Positions 2,508-10,235 of a stretch of 10,999 bases of DNA are shown in pieces. The notes beneath the pieces are model-generated. The model did not search any database and had not been told where the DNA came from. It saw nothing but the letters and a program-made list of their open reading frames with translations. This stretch comes from Alphaproteobacteria bacterium (lineage in GTDB: Bacteria; Pseudomonadota; Alphaproteobacteria; Micavibrionales; Micavibrionaceae): assembly GCA_023140905.1 (NCBI GenBank), contig JAGLKS010000197.1, positions 1 through 10,999 of the forward strand, written 5' to 3'. The position numbers and the translations under genes were made by a program. The first letter of the stretch is position 1, and each line of letters begins with the position of its first letter.

Positions 2508-3785
2508 TCACCAGTTTTCTCTGATCCAGAGCTTAACGCGCTCAAATACTGATTCAGGGCGGACTTGCGCCACAATTTCAGCAGGCATTTCAGCAACATG
2601 CTCCGCCGCATAAGCCAACAATCCGGCGACAGTTGCAAATTCCGGCCCACTTACAGCGTCAGGCAATCCGGTTAAGCGAATAGGTTTACCTATACGAATT
2701 TGCTTATCCAGCACATGACCGGCTAAATCACGAATCCCAAGTGTTTGACTAGCCCCCCCTGTTAAAACAACTCTGCGACTGATAATGCGCTCTAAACCAC
2801 TATCGCAAAGCTTGGCACGTACATGCTCGAAAATTTCCTCAAGGCGCGGCTGTATGATACCGACAAGATAAGAACGGGGCACATAATTGGGTTTGCCATG
2901 TTCGCGGTCTTCACCAAGACGCGGAACCTCGATCATTTCACCTTCATCACTCTGAGATGCAACCGCGCATCCATAATGAACTTTCAAGCGCTCCGCATTC
3001 TCTTTTGATGTTGTAAGGCCTCGCGCAATATCATTTGTAACATGCTGCCCTCCCATAGGCACCGCATCACAATAGATCATGTACCCACTATGAAAGACTG
3101 CAAAAGACGTTACACCAGCACCAATATCAACAACTGTACACCCTAGTTCAATCTCATCATCCACTAACGAAGAAAGGCCTGCCGCATAAGAACTGGCACA
3201 AAGAGCGGATATATCCAGATGGCTACGTTCTACACAAGCAGCCATATTGCGCAAAGCTGCCCCGTCACCGGAAACCAGATTTACATCAACTTTAAGCTCT
3301 TCAGCATACATGCCACGCGGATCACGAATACCGTTTTGCCCATCCACACGGAAGAAAGTAGGAATAGTATGAATAAGTTCCAGACTCTCATTAGCTTCTT
3401 TTTCCTGAGCTTTAGCTAAAGCCCTGCGTACATCATTACCTGTGATATCATGGCCGCCGATATTAACATCTACGCTATGGCCAAATGAACGAACATGTAT
3501 ACCTGAAACGCTAAGAACAATTTCCCGAAGCGGATAACCGCGCATAACTTCCGCAGCCATATTTTCTGCAGCATGAACTGCCTGCCGTATAACATTCTCA
3601 GCTAAATCAAGATCAGTTATAACGCCGTTCTTTATCCCTTGAGATGCTTTTTGCCCAACACCGATAATTTCGAATGTCCCGTTATCATCAGCAATACGGC
3701 CAATAAAACAGGATGTTTTACTACTGCCCATATCTAATGCAGCAAATAAAGAGCCTTTGGGTCTTATTGTCTTTTCAGTGTTCAT
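2508..3785 (-). CDS. ftsA: Cell division protein FtsA
   Basis: Actin-like ATPase that tethers FtsZ filaments to the inner membrane and passes signals to the later divisome. At 425 aa it has the usual family length. Visible actin-fold motifs: phosphate-1 loop ALDMGSSKTSCFIG at 16-29, phosphate-2 loop VVDIGAGVTSFAVF at 218-231, and adenosine motif LTGGASQTLGI at 341-351. The inserted 1C subdomain, typical of FtsA, falls between about 85 and 165. The last residues, FERVKLWIRENW (414-425), form the amphipathic helix expected to bind the membrane. I chose ATG 3785. The open frame extends to a TTG at 3896, but that adds 37 Cys-rich residues with no family resemblance. The SD at 3785 is weak (GCGGA, about 11 nt upstream). 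The gap from ftsQ is 130 bp, and ftsZ does not follow directly as it usually does. Confidence 0.95.
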   Translation of the reverse strand: MNTEKTIRPKGSLFAALDMGSSKTSCFIGRIADDNGTFEIIGVGQKASQGIKNGVITDLDLAENVIRQAVHAAENMAAEVMRGYPLREIVLSVSGIHVRSFGHSVDVNIGGHDITGNDVRRALAKAQEKEANESLELIHTIPTFFRVDGQNGIRDPRGMYAEELKVDVNLVSGDGAALRNMAACVERSHLDISALCASSYAAGLSSLVDDEIELGCTVVDIGAGVTSFAVFHSGYMIYCDAVPMGGQHVTNDIARGLTTSKENAERLKVHYGCAVASQSDEGEMIEVPRLGEDREHGKPNYVPRSYLVGIIQPRLEEIFEHVRAKLCDSGLERIISRRVVLTGGASQTLGIRDLAGHVLDKQIRIGKPIRLTGLPDAVSGPEFATVAGLLAYAAEHVAEMPAEIVAQVRPESVFERVKLWIRENW

Positions 3786-3915
3786 TTTTGTCGTTTTATC
3801 CGCACTCTTTTGTATGCACTCTTCATTATTTTTATTACCATTTACACAGTTTACACAACAGCTTATTGCGCTGCACAGAACAAGGCATGTGGACAATTAC
3901 AAAGATAGTAAGGCT
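3786..3915 (-). promoter_or_regulatory. ftsQ-ftsA intergenic leader with direct repeat
   Basis: A 130-bp gap separates the ftsQ stop from the chosen ftsA ATG. On the plus strand it carries a tandem direct repeat, TTTACACAG followed by TTTACACAA (3841-3858). It also contains a DnaA-box-like TTGTCCACA on the minus strand (3896-3888, 8 of 9 matches). The AT-rich stretch nearer to ftsA could hold a -10 element, but no confident promoter was found. The alternative is that this DNA is coding and ftsA starts at the TTG at 3896. Confidence 0.3.
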
Positions 3916-4845
3916 TCACCTTATTCCTGCCTTGTAATCCTGAACACGTCCCAAGCTTGTACGCACGATTAATCGATCTTTATACCGTGCATCAATTTCA
4001 ACTATCGTATTATTGTCTAGAATTTGATTTTGCGCATGACGATTCATTATATGTACCAGCGCACGTTCTGCATTGTGTTCCGGCAATTTTACACGCAAAT
4101 CACCGGATAAAATTAAATTCCAGCGCCGTCCATCCACAAAAACAGCATGATCTATTTGCTTTTTAAGGTCCGGCTGTGCAACCAACATGGAAAGCAAAGC
4201 TTTTGTGTTTCCCGGCGCTTTTACACCTTGAACCATCATAAGTGTCTTAAAATTCTCAACACCGCTTTGTGTAATGACAATGCCTTGATCGTCTATCAAA
4301 GATAGAACATCATCATTGAGCCATAATGCTGTAGGGTGACGTTCTTCCAACATAATATAAATCGTATCTGGCAGCCGTCGTTGAATATGAACAGATTTAA
4401 CCCAGCCTATACGCTCTATTTGTCTTTTTGCTTCACTGGGTACAAATGTGAATATAGGATCTCCTTTACGCACATTGATAATAGCAAGCAATGCGTCAGA
4501 ATCTGTATAACGCCGACCTTCAACCAATATATTACGTACAGTAAATCCATAATCAGCAGAAAGAGAAATTGCCTGTTGCCGAAGCCAGAGAGATGTTCTG
4601 GCCGGACCATCACTCAGAATGTACCAACCAACTCCCCACAAAAACAGTAAAAATATTAGAATAATGACTGATATTTTTTTAAACGTTGCTAGAAAAGCTT
4701 CTGACTTATTCGCATTTTTGCGCTTTTGTGTCATGGTGGATTTACGCGCGCCTTTAGGTTTGTCCGGTTTTTTCTTCACAGCCTTACTTTTTAGCCCATC
4801 ACCTTTAGAACGCATGGTTTTTGTATTTTTACGCTTTACCGCCAT
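3916..4845 (-). CDS. ftsQ: Cell division protein FtsQ
   Basis: Single-pass (bitopic) inner-membrane divisome protein that links early division proteins to the septal synthases through the FtsQ-FtsL-FtsB complex. The 309 residues read in order as follows. A strongly basic cytoplasmic tail covers about 1-57 and is unusually rich in Lys/Arg. One membrane helix spans about 58-76 (ISVIILIFLLFLWGVGWYI). A periplasmic POTRA domain follows from about 101 to 170 (FTVRNILVEGRRYTDSDALL opening, closing near LPDTIYIMLEERHPTALW). A C-terminal beta domain runs to the end. The order basic tail, helix, POTRA, beta domain is diagnostic. The start ATG 4845 has a strong SD (AGGGGGA, about 11 nt upstream) lying in the 25-bp gap after ddl, so the two genes are probably co-transcribed. 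Confidence 0.95.
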   Translation of the reverse strand: MAVKRKNTKTMRSKGDGLKSKAVKKKPDKPKGARKSTMTQKRKNANKSEAFLATFKKISVIILIFLLFLWGVGWYILSDGPARTSLWLRQQAISLSADYGFTVRNILVEGRRYTDSDALLAIINVRKGDPIFTFVPSEAKRQIERIGWVKSVHIQRRLPDTIYIMLEERHPTALWLNDDVLSLIDDQGIVITQSGVENFKTLMMVQGVKAPGNTKALLSMLVAQPDLKKQIDHAVFVDGRRWNLILSGDLRVKLPEHNAERALVHIMNRHAQNQILDNNTIVEIDARYKDRLIVRTSLGRVQDYKAGIR

Positions 4846-4870: not shown

Positions 4871-6115
4871 TCAGGGACGTCTGAGTAATCGTGCCTCTTG
4901 TGGCACGGGATCATAAGGAAGCGTATGTCTGGCATTCTCGCTTATGGCTTCTTCAATCAACATTGTTAAAAGGTCCGTGAAAAGCACAGGATTATCTTTA
5001 GCCGCCTCCCATAAGAAAAAGCCAAAAGACCCCGGACATGGGTTAACTTCATTCATCCAGATTTCACCGGTCTTGGAATTACCAATAAAATCAATACGCG
5101 GAATACCTGTTCCATCGAGTACATCAAATAAATGCGTAGACCAACTGCGAATATCACGTTCCATCTCTTCTGGAATATCTGGATTAATATCACGGGTCAG
5201 AGATAACATTCCTTCGCTTGGGATTGGAGAATTTTTAACACCACCGGATTTAATGCCGCCTTCTCCGTCATTGCTTGGCACATATTTTTGTTTAAAATCT
5301 AAAAGTTCGGTTGTTGTTTTCGGGCGTTCAATAGCTGATATCTTAATTTCTCCATTAATACGGCCAACAGCCACATTATATTCCACCAGATTCTCAACAA
5401 AAGGCTCTGCGATTGCGGAATCATCATATTCAAAAATAGCAGGAAGGCAGGCTTTCACTTCTTCTATGCTATTTACTTTGGCCACCCCTATAGAGCTTCC
5501 TAAATGCACAGGCTTTAATATGCATGGAAAGCCCAGCGGTTTAAATAATTCTTCCAGAGATTTCTCATCAACCAGATAGCTTCCGTCATCAGGACGGCGA
5601 ACAACAGTATATGGAAGAACCGGAATATCTAGTGAATGAAGCACAAATTTTGTTGTAACTTTATCCATCAAAATAGCTGAAGCCTTGGTCCGCATACCGG
5701 TATAAGGTACATTGGCAAGCTCAAACAAACCCTGAATATTCCCATCTTCACCATAAAGCCCATGAAATATGAGCATAGCAATGTCAAATTCTATTGGTTT
5801 AACTGCGCCAAACAACCCTTTCTTTTTAGGCAAAAGTTTACCGCCTCGATCTGCCTTTATATCCAAAGTCACCTCGGTAACGTTTTCCATCCCCTGTGCA
5901 TCTAAAAGAAAATTATCCCGCTCACGTAAGATATCCCCTGTATACCACGCGCCATCTGGAGCAATGTAAACAGGAATGATATCGAATTTAGAAGTGTCAA
6001 AAGCCTGAAGCACCTGAAGCGCAGATATTATACTTATATCATGTTCAGGGGAACGCCCTCCGTAAAATACAGCCACAGTCTTTTTTACGGTTTTATTGTT
6101 TTTGGTTTGAGCCAT
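4871..6115 (-). CDS. ddl: D-alanine--D-alanine ligase-type ATP-grasp enzyme, divergent
   Basis: Joins two D-amino acids (classically D-Ala + D-Ala) with ATP in the cytoplasm, giving the dipeptide that MurF adds to the peptidoglycan stem. Family motifs are clear: GGRSPEHDIS at 19-28, HGLYGEDGNIQG at 118-129, YTG at 138-140, KPVHLGSSIGV at 201-211, RIDF at 340-343 and metal-binding NEVN at 355-358. Oddities: 414 aa is well above the 300-370 aa usual for Ddl. There is a Gly-rich insertion near 282-296. The loop after NEVN reads PCPGSFGFFLWE instead of the usual PGxTxxS type that holds the second substrate. This suggests a different Ddl lineage or an altered second substrate. The start ATG 6115 has SD AGGTGA nine nt upstream. 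It lies in the normal ddl position before ftsQ, but murB is missing upstream and a divergent gene pair is present instead. Confidence 0.9.
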   Translation of the reverse strand: MAQTKNNKTVKKTVAVFYGGRSPEHDISIISALQVLQAFDTSKFDIIPVYIAPDGAWYTGDILRERDNFLLDAQGMENVTEVTLDIKADRGGKLLPKKKGLFGAVKPIEFDIAMLIFHGLYGEDGNIQGLFELANVPYTGMRTKASAILMDKVTTKFVLHSLDIPVLPYTVVRRPDDGSYLVDEKSLEELFKPLGFPCILKPVHLGSSIGVAKVNSIEEVKACLPAIFEYDDSAIAEPFVENLVEYNVAVGRINGEIKISAIERPKTTTELLDFKQKYVPSNDGEGGIKSGGVKNSPIPSEGMLSLTRDINPDIPEEMERDIRSWSTHLFDVLDGTGIPRIDFIGNSKTGEIWMNEVNPCPGSFGFFLWEAAKDNPVLFTDLLTMLIEEAISENARHTLPYDPVPQEARLLRRP

Positions 6116-6246
6116 GGATCAATCACCTATAGATTTAATGGTTAATGGGATAGCTTAATTATTAATAGCCAAATCCAGAACTAAATAGTGTGACAGTATT
6201 TAATCACGAAACAGCCTCTTATGAAAGGGAAGAAGGGTCAATAAAA
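6116..6246. promoter_or_regulatory. Divergent promoter region between ddl and the hydrolase gene
   Basis: This AT-rich spacer must drive ddl-ftsQ leftward and the hydrolase/Mur-ligase pair rightward. It contains four TTAA half-sites (6135, 6142, 6155, 6162), arranged as two TTAA-N3-TTAA pairs. The ddl SD (AGGTGA) is at its left edge, and an AGAAGGG SD (6232-6238) serves the GTG at 6247. No clear -35/-10 pair could be assigned on either strand. A sequence similar to TAGTGTGACAGT (6186-6197) recurs before the Mur ligase gene. Confidence 0.4.
6138..6145 (-). promoter_or_regulatory. Candidate CtrA half-site TTAACCAT
   Basis: The minus strand reads TTAACCAT, identical to the 8-mer half-site reported for the alphaproteobacterial cell-cycle regulator CtrA. 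It lies 22 bp upstream of the ddl start codon, in the divergent promoter region. No full TTAA-N7-TTAA site is present, and an 8-mer in AT-rich DNA can occur by chance. Confidence 0.25.
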
Positions 6247-7023
6247 GTGCAAAATTTTAATTCTCATAATACCCGGTTTGCTTATAGTTGTATTGGGAAA
6301 GAAGATGATCCTGCTCTCCCTGTTGTTATATGGGCGCATGGCTGGGGACATTCGCATAAAAGTTTTAAACATTATCTAGCCGCTTTGGAACAACAAGCCC
6401 GTCATATTGCCCTTGATTTCCCCGGTTTTGGAGAATCACCGGAACCACCAGAACACTGGGGTACAATAGAATATGCCGATGCCATAGCATCATGGATAAA
6501 AGACAATAACATGCCTCCTGTCCTTTGGATCGGTCATTCTTTTGGCTGCCGCGTAGGAACCCAACTAGCTGCGCACCACCCCGAATGTGTTCGTGAAATG
6601 ATTTATATTGCAGGAGCCGGACTAAAGCGCCCGCGACCTTTCTATAAACGCCTTTATCTTTTCATACGTATTCGCCTGTTTAAAGCATTGCGACACTATG
6701 TGCCTGAAAGTTCTCTCAAGAAAAAATTGGTGGCTATCTTTGGAAGCTCTGATTACAACCAAACATCAGGTATTATGCGTAAAATCCTTGTCCGGATTGT
6801 TAATGAAGATCTTGTTGAAGAAGCTAAGAAAATATCCTGCCCTGTTACTCTCATTTACGGAACAGAAGATACAGAAACACCGCCTTCTATTGGCAAAAAA
6901 TATGCACAGCTTATTAAAAATTCGCAATTACATTTACTTGAAGGACAGGACCATATTTCAGTTCTGCAAAATGGACGCCATCGCATTATAAAAATCATTA
7001 GTGATACTATAAATGATCTTTAG
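6247..7023 (+). CDS. Alpha/beta hydrolase, partner of the MurF-like ligase
   Basis: Serine hydrolase of the alpha/beta fold with an unknown substrate. Numbered from GTG 6247 (258 aa): oxyanion segment HGWG at 31-34, DFPGFGES at 76-83, nucleophile elbow GHSFG with Ser98, acid Asp208 in YGTEDTETPP, and His236 in GQDHIS. The triad is intact and a helical lid lies between about 126 and 180. No signal peptide is seen, so it is probably cytoplasmic. Start choice: GTG 6247 has AGAAGGG nine nt upstream. The frame also allows GTG 6190 (277 aa), which has no SD. The MurF-like gene follows after 77 bp on the same strand, so they are probably co-transcribed. Lipase, esterase, amidase or thioesterase activity cannot be told apart from sequence. 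The context points to a cell wall or lipid-linked precursor, which is inference. Confidence 0.85.
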   Translation: MQNFNSHNTRFAYSCIGKEDDPALPVVIWAHGWGHSHKSFKHYLAALEQQARHIALDFPGFGESPEPPEHWGTIEYADAIASWIKDNNMPPVLWIGHSFGCRVGTQLAAHHPECVREMIYIAGAGLKRPRPFYKRLYLFIRIRLFKALRHYVPESSLKKKLVAIFGSSDYNQTSGIMRKILVRIVNEDLVEEAKKISCPVTLIYGTEDTETPPSIGKKYAQLIKNSQLHLLEGQDHISVLQNGRHRIIKIISDTINDL

Positions 7024-7034
7024 TTTTTCACTGC

Positions 7035-7061
7035 CACTCTGGAAAAATCAGGAAAAGAGTG
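7035..7061. repeat. Small inverted repeat CACTCT / AGAGTG between hydrolase and Mur ligase genes
   Basis: CACTCT (7035-7040) and AGAGTG (7056-7061) give a perfect 6-bp stem with a 15-nt loop in the 77-bp intergenic gap. No T-run follows, so it is not an intrinsic terminator, and read-through into the ligase gene remains likely. It may be chance. Confidence 0.2.
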
Positions 7062-7100
7062 TAGTATGACAGTTTCATTTATGAAAGAACCCTTTAAATT

Positions 7101-8744
7101 ATGAGCGCTGAAATTGCTATAGGATTTTTTACCCTGATTGCTTTTCTGGCTTTTGCCGGACGGCGTTTGATGCGCTACTTGCATAATCTGCAACAAGAAG
7201 ATTACGATAATGGTCGGCTTTTAGGCTGGATATTTCGCTATAAAGTTCTTGATAAACGCATCAGCTTTATTCTTTTTCTTTTGGTTCTGGGTGCTTATTT
7301 CAAAGACTTGCCTGTAGTCAGTGTGCATATCGGTTTATTCCTGATTTTTGTAATTGCTTTTTATACCGAGGCAGACCCTCGTAAAGCTGCAAAGAAAGCT
7401 TTCGTCCTGACCGCACGAGCAAAGCGAATTCTTGTTGTTTCCCTTCTTTATACAACGCTTATAGTCCTTGCAGGGTTTTATCTGGCACAGCCTGCATTCT
7501 GGATTATCCATGTGCAACTTCTACCATTTATCCTGATGCTGGGGAATTTAACGCTTGAACCATATGAAAGGCTTGTCCAGCGTAAATTCTATGATGATGC
7601 CCGCGCAAAATTAACGGAACTCAATCCTACAATTATTGCTATTACAGGATCATATGGCAAAACTTCTGTTAAGCACATATTGGGGCATATTTTAAAGAAC
7701 AGTGCCCCCACTCTGATCACACCAGGCAGTGTCAATACTTTGATGGGCATTACACGCATTATCCGCGAACAGCTAGGAGCCAATCACCGTTACTTTATTG
7801 TTGAGATGGGCGCATACGGCCCCGGTTCTATTGAATCTCTGTGCAAACTCACACCTCCCGATTACGGGATTATCAGCTCTATCGGCCACGCACATTATGA
7901 GCGTTTCAAGACGCTTGATACTGTGGTGCGTGCAAAATATGAACTTGCCAAAGCTGTACTAGAAAATAATGGAACGATGATCGTTCATGAAAAAACCTTG
8001 AAATTTAAATATTCACAAAGCATACGGCATCAGAATATGGACAGCTTTATTGCTTGTGGTGAACCTTTACAGGCCAAATCTCCGCAAAGTGCTCAAGAAT
8101 ATAGTTATCTTACACCTGATGACCTGAATATTTTATCCATTGAGCAAACACCTAAGGGTTTGTGCATACACTTTGAATGGAAGGATGAGAAATACACACT
8201 ACGTGCTCCGTTATATGGAATTCATCATGGCCACAATATCGCCCTGGCTTTTGCCTGCGCAATGACATTAGGGATAGATGCAAAAGATATCAAAATGGCA
8301 CTGGCTTCCACACCACAGATTACGCATCGACTTGAAGTGAAACAACAAATCGATGGCTCTATTATCATTGATGATGCCTTTAATTCCAATCCTCCGGGTT
8401 TCAGAAGCGCTATGCATGTCTTACGGGTACTGGCTGATGACAGAGCTGGCCGCGCTATTTTAGTTACACCCGGAATTGTTGAGTTGGGAAACAAGCATAA
8501 TGAAGTTCACCGTACATTAGGTGTATTAGCTGCCGAAGTTTGTGACATTGTCATGGTCGTTTCACCATCACGCATTCCAACCTTCATTGAAGGATTCAAA
8601 AGCGTGGATAACAGCAAAACTCTACAACAATTTGAAACCTTCTCTGCAGCAGAAAAATGGCTCATTAAAAACAAACGTGCTAACGATGTTATTCTACTGG
8701 AAAATGATTTACCTGATCTATATGAACGTATTTTGAAGATATAG
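7101..8744 (+). CDS. Membrane-anchored MurF-like Mur ligase
   Basis: ATP-dependent Mur-ligase-family enzyme, 547 aa. The first ~150 residues are membrane-rich, with hydrophobic segments at about 4-19, 54-68, 72-88, 109-128 and 132-149. They stand where MurF has its UDP-sugar-binding domain. The central domain has P-loop ITGSYGKTS at 181-189, EMGAYGPGSI at 235-244 (MurF: MGANHPGEI), IGHAHYERF at 261-269, and RAKYELAKA with Lys279, a likely carbamylated lysine. HNIALA (378-383), HRLE (409-412) and IIIDDAFNSNPPGF (421-434) match MurF, as does ELG (461-463) of the C-terminal domain. The ligase core therefore appears complete. It may attach an amino acid or dipeptide to a lipid-linked precursor at the inner membrane; the substrate is unknown. 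ATG 7101 has only a weak SD. It is probably not the housekeeping MurF, which normally lies near murE/mraY. The stop is 15 bp from the convergent murC stop. Confidence 0.85.
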   Translation: MSAEIAIGFFTLIAFLAFAGRRLMRYLHNLQQEDYDNGRLLGWIFRYKVLDKRISFILFLLVLGAYFKDLPVVSVHIGLFLIFVIAFYTEADPRKAAKKAFVLTARAKRILVVSLLYTTLIVLAGFYLAQPAFWIIHVQLLPFILMLGNLTLEPYERLVQRKFYDDARAKLTELNPTIIAITGSYGKTSVKHILGHILKNSAPTLITPGSVNTLMGITRIIREQLGANHRYFIVEMGAYGPGSIESLCKLTPPDYGIISSIGHAHYERFKTLDTVVRAKYELAKAVLENNGTMIVHEKTLKFKYSQSIRHQNMDSFIACGEPLQAKSPQSAQEYSYLTPDDLNILSIEQTPKGLCIHFEWKDEKYTLRAPLYGIHHGHNIALAFACAMTLGIDAKDIKMALASTPQITHRLEVKQQIDGSIIIDDAFNSNPPGFRSAMHVLRVLADDRAGRAILVTPGIVELGNKHNEVHRTLGVLAAEVCDIVMVVSPSRIPTFIEGFKSVDNSKTLQQFETFSAAEKWLIKNKRANDVILLENDLPDLYERILKI

Positions 8745-8759
8745 TATAGTAGTTTCACT

Positions 8760-10220
8760 TTAAGCCGCAACTTCCTTAGATTTAATGCGCTCAATTTCCA
8801 ACTCTTCAGGCAGAGCATAAGCCCAATGTGTAGAGTCGCCAGCCCCCATGATAATAACAAAGTCCCCTGATTCAGCTGTTTCTGAAATCATCCGGGCTAA
8901 ATCATCTTTATCCGGCAAAACACATACAGAGGGATGACCATATTTTCTTAAGCCTTCAACAAGGTATTCCTTATTGATACCCTCAATTGGTTCTTCGCTA
9001 GCTTCGTAAACATCAGCAACAATCACATGATCTGCATCGCTAAAGCAGCCACAAAATTGTTCATATAAACTTTTCAGACGTGTATAACGGTGAGGCTGCA
9101 TCACAGCAATCACATGCCCTCCGGTCTGTTCTACAGCATGACGGGCCGTTTTTAAGACAACACCGATTTCTACCGGATGGTGTGCATAATCATCAATAAT
9201 CGTAATACCATCAATCTCTCCGGTGTTGGTAAAACGACGCTTCACACCGCCGAAATTGTTCAGTGCTTGCTTCATAACATCAAACTTTATTCCCATTTCA
9301 TTAGCAACACCCAGCGCAGCCAGTGAATTTTGAACATTATGAATACCGAGCATAGAAAGATGTATATCTTTAATCATAATATCCTGACCATCTTTATTGA
9401 GCCAACCAGCAAAAAACGCATCAAAAGTGTTTCCAGTCTTATCAAAGCGAACATTTTCTGCCCGAATATCAGCCTTTGGATTAAACCCGTAAGTAATGAT
9501 TTTTCGATCCTTGACTTGCAACACAAGTTTTTGTACTTCCGGATGATCGATACAAAGAAGTCCATAACCATAAAATGGAAGCCCCAGAATAAATTGGCGA
9601 TAGGCTTTTTGCACTTCCTCAAAAGATCCGTAATGATCCATATGCTCTGGATCAATGTTAGTCACCACACCTACTGTTGCAGGCAAAGCTGTGAAGCTGC
9701 CATCACTTTCATCAGCTTCGACAACCATCCATTGTGATTGACCTAAACGCATATTTGTGCCGTAAGCATTGACAATCCCGCCATTAACCACAGTTGGATC
9801 AAGCCCGGCATGGTCCAGCATTTGTCCAACCATCGACGTTGTTGTAGTTTTTCCATGTGTACCGGTCACAGCAACAGAAGTTTTCAAGCGCATAAGCTCA
9901 GCCAGCATTTCTGCACGGCGGGCAACTGGAACTTTAGCAACACGCGCCGCTATTAATTCGGGGTTATCATCAGATATAGCTGAAGACACAACAACAGCAG
10001 CCGACAGAATTTCATCTTCATTCTTGAGGTTGCTTGCATCATGACCAATATAAACGCGAACACCTAATTCTCTGAGTCGTTTAACATTACCGTTTTCCGC
10101 AACATCCGAGCCTTGCACATCATATCCCAAAGAAACAAGCAGCATAGCAATACCACTCATGCCAATGCCGCCAATTCCAATAAAATGTAAAGTTCCAATT
10201 TCTGGAGACATCATGCGCAT
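8760..10220 (-). CDS. murC: UDP-N-acetylmuramate--L-alanine ligase MurC
   Basis: Adds L-alanine to UDP-MurNAc with ATP, the first step of stem peptide assembly in the cytoplasm. The 486 residues carry all three Mur domains. Numbered from ATG 10220: N-terminal Rossmann motif FIGIGGIGMSG near 13-23, ATP-binding VTGTHGKTTTTSM near 118-130, EADESD near 168-173, the histidine-rich segment NIDPEHMDHYG near 188-198, HNVQNSLAA near 294-302, and DDYAHHPVEI near 343-352. The length is normal for MurC and no key residue is missing. Start choice: ATG 10220 has AGGA nine nt upstream, right after the murG stop. The open frame extends three codons to a TTG (10229), which is less likely. Two further ATGs lie 2 and 3 codons in. 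The 15-bp gap to murG suggests co-transcription and perhaps coupled translation. The usual next gene, murB, is absent. Confidence 0.97.
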   Translation of the reverse strand: MRMMSPEIGTLHFIGIGGIGMSGIAMLLVSLGYDVQGSDVAENGNVKRLRELGVRVYIGHDASNLKNEDEILSAAVVVSSAISDDNPELIAARVAKVPVARRAEMLAELMRLKTSVAVTGTHGKTTTTSMVGQMLDHAGLDPTVVNGGIVNAYGTNMRLGQSQWMVVEADESDGSFTALPATVGVVTNIDPEHMDHYGSFEEVQKAYRQFILGLPFYGYGLLCIDHPEVQKLVLQVKDRKIITYGFNPKADIRAENVRFDKTGNTFDAFFAGWLNKDGQDIMIKDIHLSMLGIHNVQNSLAALGVANEMGIKFDVMKQALNNFGGVKRRFTNTGEIDGITIIDDYAHHPVEIGVVLKTARHAVEQTGGHVIAVMQPHRYTRLKSLYEQFCGCFSDADHVIVADVYEASEEPIEGINKEYLVEGLRKYGHPSVCVLPDKDDLARMISETAESGDFVIIMGAGDSTHWAYALPEELEIERIKSKEVAA

Positions 10221-10235
10221 AATATTCAATCCTGT

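Follow-up and report, generated by a model that had tools for sequence, protein, structure and literature searches.

A module of Ddl, hydrolase and putative membrane Mur ligase in the division and cell wall cluster of Micavibrio-like Alphaproteobacteria

We analysed a 10,999-bp stretch of DNA (the window), which is the entire contig C109 of a Micavibrio-like alphaproteobacterial metagenome-assembled genome (MAG). Within its division and cell wall (dcw) cluster stand together the genes of a long-form D-Ala-D-Ala ligase (Ddl), an alpha/beta hydrolase and a Mur ligase of the MurF type with a putative membrane domain. These three genes form a module extending well beyond the window's order. It is highly probable that in this lineage the module stands in for the canonical forms of both ddl and murF, and that murB was lost separately in the window's genome and two of its relatives. 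An earlier, sequence-only reading had described the hydrolase and ligase genes as an inverted pair on the plus strand between murC and ddl, 15 bp from the former and about 75–130 bp from the latter. The open reading frames (ORFs) and protein families confirm the pair, and the edges are as described, with the gap to ddl measuring 74 bp to a GTG at 6190 or 131 bp to a GTG at 6247. In the following, G-numbers denote genomes compared and L-numbers loci compared, G000 being the window's own genome (1.75 Mb in 381 contigs, with 74.75% completeness and 3.76% contamination).

Canonical murF and the distribution of the module

MurF is an essential enzyme and antibiotic target, a soluble protein of three domains that binds the UDP precursor. 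Across 38 genomes of the window's order, the membrane ligase was detected in 21 and canonical murF (over cut-off) in 15, with none carrying both; the remaining genomes were G010, where the ligase is represented by just 21 residues at the edge of a contig, and G030, with neither. Canonical murF was thus absent from all 21 ligase-bearing genomes, 13 of which are 99–100% complete, leaving the ligase as the sole candidate for the step that adds D-Ala-D-Ala. As the two forms never co-occur in the 38 genomes, the membrane ligase is very likely this lineage's MurF, in place of the usual soluble form. Among 18 further holders, picked from 80 loci in named genomes and with kinship not accounted for, 15 were without canonical murF and three had both. 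Azospirillum halopraeferens DSM 3675 and Blastochloris sulfoviridis are examples of free-living holders that lack canonical murF. Each of these 18 had one Ddl match at E ≤ 1e-20, lying about 5 kb or less from the ligase in 17.

A wider set comprised 387 genomes of the window's class, for which a minimum completeness of 90 was requested and in which G000 was also listed. Canonical murF exceeded the cut-off in 352 of these genomes, 25 had a weaker match only and ten had none at E ≤ 1e-45. Four genomes of one genus, g84 (G112, G212, G357 and G417; 0.9 Mb, 99–100% complete), had no MurF match at E ≤ 1e-45 and are perhaps wall-less or strongly reduced.

The 80 named-genome loci are the best of at least 566 passing loci, and they include the genomes of several G-numbered relatives, so that neither set is independent of the other. 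The hydrolase gene lies directly upstream of the ligase gene in 77 of the 80 loci. In 67 a ddl gene lies no more than 6 kb from the ligase (divergent, n = 44; upstream and co-directional, n = 20; downstream, n = 3), so the unit taken for two genes by the sequence-only reading has three. Nine of the 13 loci with no ddl in view have a short left flank, and Labrys sp. carries the hydrolase–ligase pair with ddl elsewhere. Among the holders are Azospirillum halopraeferens, Marivibrio, Blastochloris, Desulfovibrio, Kordiimonas, Rhodothalassium, Coxiellaceae and Omnitrophota records, and the nearest named ligase holders among the best 80 loci are MAGs called Alphaproteobacteria or Micavibrio sp. Protein searches with the ligase, and with a MurB from G011 described below, scored only candidates sharing most words, and each lists 120 rows. 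The ligase protein cluster spans two contigs, the longest of 24,753 bp.

Related genomes without the module have a short canonical ddl between murB and ftsQ, where the module stands in its holders. The inverted pair recurs in the clusters of related genomes, in keeping with the earlier suggestion of a conserved inserted unit. In G025 and G029 the three genes stand together with no dcw gene detected beside them in the stretch examined, and the dcw cluster of G025 runs from murB to ftsQ with no ddl between. On plasmids, a search at E ≤ 1e-20 matched 11 records, none of them in full: the matches reach no more than 63% of the query and are confined to residues 167–523, so no membrane form was seen there.

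Proteins and gene layout of the module

The best-scoring NCBIfam family for the ligase is TIGR01143 (MurF), matched at profile positions 65–403 of 418 with 203.9 bits (E = 4e-60). This is below the curated cut-off of 288.6 bits for a full-length MurF, and the ligases of all 21 ligase-bearing genomes of the order likewise score below it. The middle and C-terminal domains of MurF (PF08245 and PF02875) are present, together with the P-loop and residues common to two canonical MurFs of the order. The N-terminal Mur ligase domain (PF01225), which binds the UDP part of the substrate, gave no match in the ligase and is present in the MurC of the same window. Helices take the place of this domain according to hydropathy and an AlphaFold model (predicted local distance difference test, pLDDT, 92.7) whose best solved-structure matches are MurF; those preceding the ligase core span residues 2–32, 37–46, 52–67, 72–89, 105–128, 133–139 and 141–174. 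A crude hydropathy scan gave five peaks in the window's ligase and two to five in its homologues, hence no fixed number of membrane passes can be given. Across an alignment of 69 rows, made up of the window's own ligase and those of 68 loci from the set of 80, nine rows had five peaks, 30 had four, 24 had three and six had two. In the same alignment Q31, Q32, Y35, K98, T104 and R106 of the membrane domain are invariant and R22, R39, D51, K99, R109 and E156 nearly so. Conserved polar residues of this kind seem to exceed the need of a mere anchor.

The module Ddl has the domains PF01820 and PF07478. The Lys-Tyr of the omega loop, which goes with D-Ala-D-Ala synthesis, is present in all 13 module Ddls aligned. 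These proteins are about 410 aa long, and that of the window scores 233.4 bits against TIGR01205, below the curated cut-off of 245.65. The distance from the Tyr to the next aligned Pro is 22–37 residues in the 13 module Ddls versus 9–10 in four short Ddls. Regular expressions recovered the omega-loop stretch in 51 of 67 loci and an altered C-terminal motif, N-P-x-P-G-S-x-x-(F/Y)-x-L-W or close to it, in 60 of 67, both counts depending on the pattern used. Judged by these sequence features, the module Ddl is a distinct form. In relatives without the module, Ddl-like stretches were also observed paired in one open frame, in L062 (G023:C51:3633-5477) and at G013:C9:2716-4515 (633 and 804 aa).

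In the hydrolase, a triad of Ser117, Asp227 and His255 (numbered from the ORF at 6190) is invariant in 45 aligned rows, from which L072 and L091 were excluded for stop codons and L096 for a doubtful end. Its model (pLDDT 93.0) has lipases and esterases as the nearest solved folds, and Ser-Asp-His residues on an alpha/beta hydrolase fold suggest a serine esterase. The layout of the window is given in Table 1.

Table 1. Features of the 10,999-bp window, with coordinates, strand and supporting evidence.
Feature	Position	Strand	Evidence
ftsZ	cut by contig end	minus	ORF
ftsA	2508-3896	minus	ORF
ftsQ	3916-4845	minus	ORF
Long-form Ddl, third gene of the module	4871-6115	minus	Dala_Dala_lig domains; ddl ≤6 kb from ligase in 67/80 loci
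Extra stretch after omega-loop Lys-Tyr, within Ddl residues 279-308	5192-5281	minus	alignment
Alpha/beta hydrolase, ORF	6190-7023	plus	Pfam Abhydrolase_1, E 2e-22
Alpha/beta hydrolase, likelier start (GTG 6247)	6247-7023	plus	most homologues begin aligning at 6247
Mur ligase (membrane MurF)	7101-8744	plus	Mur_ligase_M, E 5.4e-28; Mur_ligase_C, E 2.6e-8
Putative membrane domain of ligase, residues 1-176	7101-7628	plus	hydropathy peaks, model helices, conservation
P-loop TGSYGKTS of ligase, residues 182-189	7644-7667	plus	conserved in module ligases; most positions also in two canonical MurFs of the order
Convergent junction (15 bp), murB site in relatives	8745-8759		murB there in 16/19 genomes
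murC, flank of the murB site	8760-10229	minus	TIGR01082, 521 bits
murG	cut	minus	ORF

No Rfam family or tandem repeat was found in the window. The spacer between the ftsA and ftsZ ORFs (1567–2507) measures about 0.94 kb versus about 0.29 kb in the sister genome G011 and, apart from ftsA, is overlapped by no ORF longer than 77 aa.

murB at the murC–ligase junction

A tblastn search with two MurB proteins confirmed that the window contains no murB (best E = 0.18). The sequence-only reading had gone further, placing the pair in the slot of murB as a possible replacement. A comparison of 19 genomes whose murC and ligase genes share a cluster, G000 counted among them, speaks against this: an intact murB lies between the two genes in 16 (G001–G007, G009, G012, G015–G018, G021, G022 and G031), the exceptions being G000, G008 and G011. 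The outcome which that reading had itself named as counting against it, namely the pair routinely beside an intact murB, is what the murC–ddl interval of the relatives holds. Since the unit and murB stand side by side in these 16 genomes, rather than the unit occurring only where murB is absent, the pair is not a murB stand-in. The gene order in the 16 is murC, murB, inverted ligase, hydrolase and ddl as far as each contig extends; the contig of G018 starts within the hydrolase gene, and in G003 2.7 kb separates ligase from hydrolase. Across the order, searches recovered a murB from 34 of the 38 genomes and none from G000, G008, G029 and G030.

Among the 80 named-genome loci, 28 lie in a dcw context; murB is present in 26 of them and missing from L071 and L089. 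No murC, murG or murB was found at L089 (Micavibrio sp. UBA6929), where the ligase has a serine recombinase gene (11817–13310; Resolvase, E = 2.2e-12) downstream of it.

The space between murC and the ligase is occupied in G011 by a TetR-family gene (TetR_N, E = 4.6e-17) and in G008 by a 163-aa ORF with no Pfam match. No murB remnant was detected in either gap, tblastn matches being at chance level. A murC tree groups G000 with G011 as sisters (support 100/99), and G008 is close by ligase identity (83% across residues 75–547). Missing from the tree are G012, whose short locus did not match murC under the limit applied, and G008, G010, G029, G030, G033 and G034; only ten of its 28 inner branches are well supported. 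Because the clusters of relatives and 26 of the 28 dcw loci keep murB, its loss looks like a separate, later and local event at a convergent junction which also accepts other insertions. G007 has two murC–murB copies (L041 and L042) on separate contigs, one of just 3.7 kb, perhaps reflecting a strain mixture in the MAG.

That MurB is then encoded elsewhere, one of two possibilities given by the sequence-only reading, holds for G011, whereas none was found in the assembled parts of G000 and G008, both about 75% complete. The G011 protein (C21:96197-97222) is only 27–30% identical to MurB of other genomes in the genus, and its family match (TIGR00179, 166.7 bits versus a cut-off of 144.5) marks it as a true MurB. 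Its homologues, at 55–79% identity, occur in other metagenomic sequences, with a few named Alphaproteobacteria among the matches listed. In the region L045:4522-11205 (G011:C21), the gene lies near luxI-like, luxR-like and lon genes and beside an antiporter gene.

Neither the usual nor the G011-type MurB was detected in assembled G000 or G008, and the assembled part of G000 had no match to MurB_C or FAD_binding_4, hence a FAD_binding_4 protein was rejected as a substitute reductase there. A G011-type MurB beside the matching antiporter gene was likewise rejected, as other sequence occupies that position in G000 (C144, over the only 1.2 kb present upstream) and G008 (C293); the ORF beside the antiporter gene in G000 has no Pfam match. 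Each of the two assemblies lacks a quarter of its genome, so the straightforward reading is that murB was relocated or replaced and probably lies in the unassembled part, MurB being supplied from another locus.

Alternative readings, known systems and proposed pathway

Three other accounts of the locus were weighed. Displacement of murB by a two-gene unit, which would sit in its slot and possibly help to bypass MurB, would fit a window without murB in which the pair directly abuts murC, and an assembled G000 with no match to MurB_C, FAD_binding_4 or the G011-type protein. It is nevertheless very improbable, given that pair and murB coexist in 16 of 19 genomes and 26 of 28 dcw-embedded named loci (partly the same genomes), that neither protein of the pair matched any flavoprotein family, and that G011 carries a divergent MurB elsewhere. 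The missing murB could alternatively be an assembly error, i.e. a collapsed or chimeric junction, as might be expected of a fragmented MAG with 3.76% contamination. We consider misassembly at the murC–ligase junction very unlikely, since both flanking genes are complete to their stop codons and murB is absent at the same place from the separate assemblies of two near relatives, G011 and G008. A comparison of the junction with the same place in G008 gave a 12-base match (E = 0.93), which is at chance level and was not used as proof.

The ligase might instead be a MurT-like side enzyme acting on lipid II or another polymer, with canonical murF unassembled or diverged beyond recognition. We hold this to be improbable, because canonical murF is lacking in every one of the order's 21 ligase-bearing genomes, 13 being 99–100% complete, and in 15 of 18 further holders. 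MurF is furthermore the best NCBIfam family and best structural match of the ligase, which scores E = 4e-60 for MurF versus 7.5e-5 for MurT, and most loci have a gene for a D-Ala-D-Ala ligase beside it. MurT is a subunit of the lipid II isoglutaminyl synthase, with the glutaminase GatD as its partner; general family scans, which included no search aimed at GatD, gave that name to none of the seven proteins scanned in the window.

The ligase that we read as the lineage's MurF shares with canonical MurF (TIGR01143; structures 4qf5, 3zl8 and 1gg4) the middle and C-terminal domains, the P-loop and common residues. It differs in having a multi-helix membrane domain for the N-terminal Mur domain and a score below the cut-off, and is 22% identical to two canonical MurFs of the order. 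Similarly, the module Ddl resembles canonical Ddl (TIGR01205) in being an ATP-grasp protein with the omega-loop Lys-Tyr, and differs in its length, the 12–28 additional residues after the Lys-Tyr relative to the four short Ddls, and the changed C-terminal motif, which stands where the site usually ends.

The three functions are also neighbours in Campylobacter jejuni, going by the published description: in the available part of that paper, Ddl (Cj0798c) is said to be "just upstream" of Cj0796c, a protein of the alpha/beta hydrolase fold, which is next to MurF (Cj0795c; PMC5530802). Deletion of Cj0796c did not succeed in preliminary experiments, and in the authors' view the protein may be essential and have a part in peptidoglycan biosynthesis; additional expression left most transformants unchanged and gave filaments in about one in ten (PMC5530802). 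The C. jejuni arrangement differs in that the locus number Cj0797c falls between, and in that MurF is treated there as an ordinary UDP-MurNAc-tripeptide enzyme, the available text describing neither a module nor a membrane domain, nor any form that replaces canonical MurF (PMC5530802). In the portions available, an essential-gene paper on C. jejuni lists cj0795c and cj0798c, with cj0796c absent from that portion (PMC3229698), and papers on Helicobacter pylori call MurF essential and interacting with the shape protein Csd5 (PMC9507126) and give murF as 1485 bp (PMC6501431), without a description of its domains. Among the open-licence papers listed in literature searches, no title or abstract opening describes a membrane MurF or this module. 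This suggests that a membrane MurF variant with its own Ddl and hydrolase is new, and that the gene adjacency, as far as the available C. jejuni text goes, was already known.

In the pathway we propose, Ddl would make the dipeptide, as its family membership implies. The ligase, probably held in the membrane by its N-terminal multi-helix domain, would use ATP to attach the dipeptide to the MurNAc-tripeptide near MraY; its activity is assigned by family and its membrane position by sequence and model. The hydrolase may clear or edit a by-product of the ligation step, its substrate and role being a guess, and MurB would be supplied from another locus after its loss beside murC. Of two possible substrates for the ligase, the UDP-linked tripeptide is the more conservative and is possible. 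Action on the undecaprenyl-linked tripeptide, with D-Ala-D-Ala added after MraY and the last cytoplasmic steps reversed, is rather unlikely; it is favoured by the loss of the N-terminal Mur domain and by the likeness to MurT, which acts on lipid II, neither being decisive. If the lipid-linked substrate were true, the missing Mur domain, the basic and polar membrane residues, the altered Ddl and the hydrolase would all be part of the same change.

Next to the module, the absence of murB itself is ordinary: the gene was lost locally, and G011, the nearest relative with a better assembly, carries a divergent MurB at another locus. The module suggests a pathway step for hydrolases of this kind, such as that of C. 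jejuni which, in the available text, resisted preliminary deletion (PMC5530802). It also makes testable whether D-Ala-D-Ala is added before or after the transfer of the precursor to lipid. Overall, 21 of the 38 genomes of the order, together with 15 of the 18 holders from other lineages, appear to rely on a membrane MurF without the N-terminal Mur domain.

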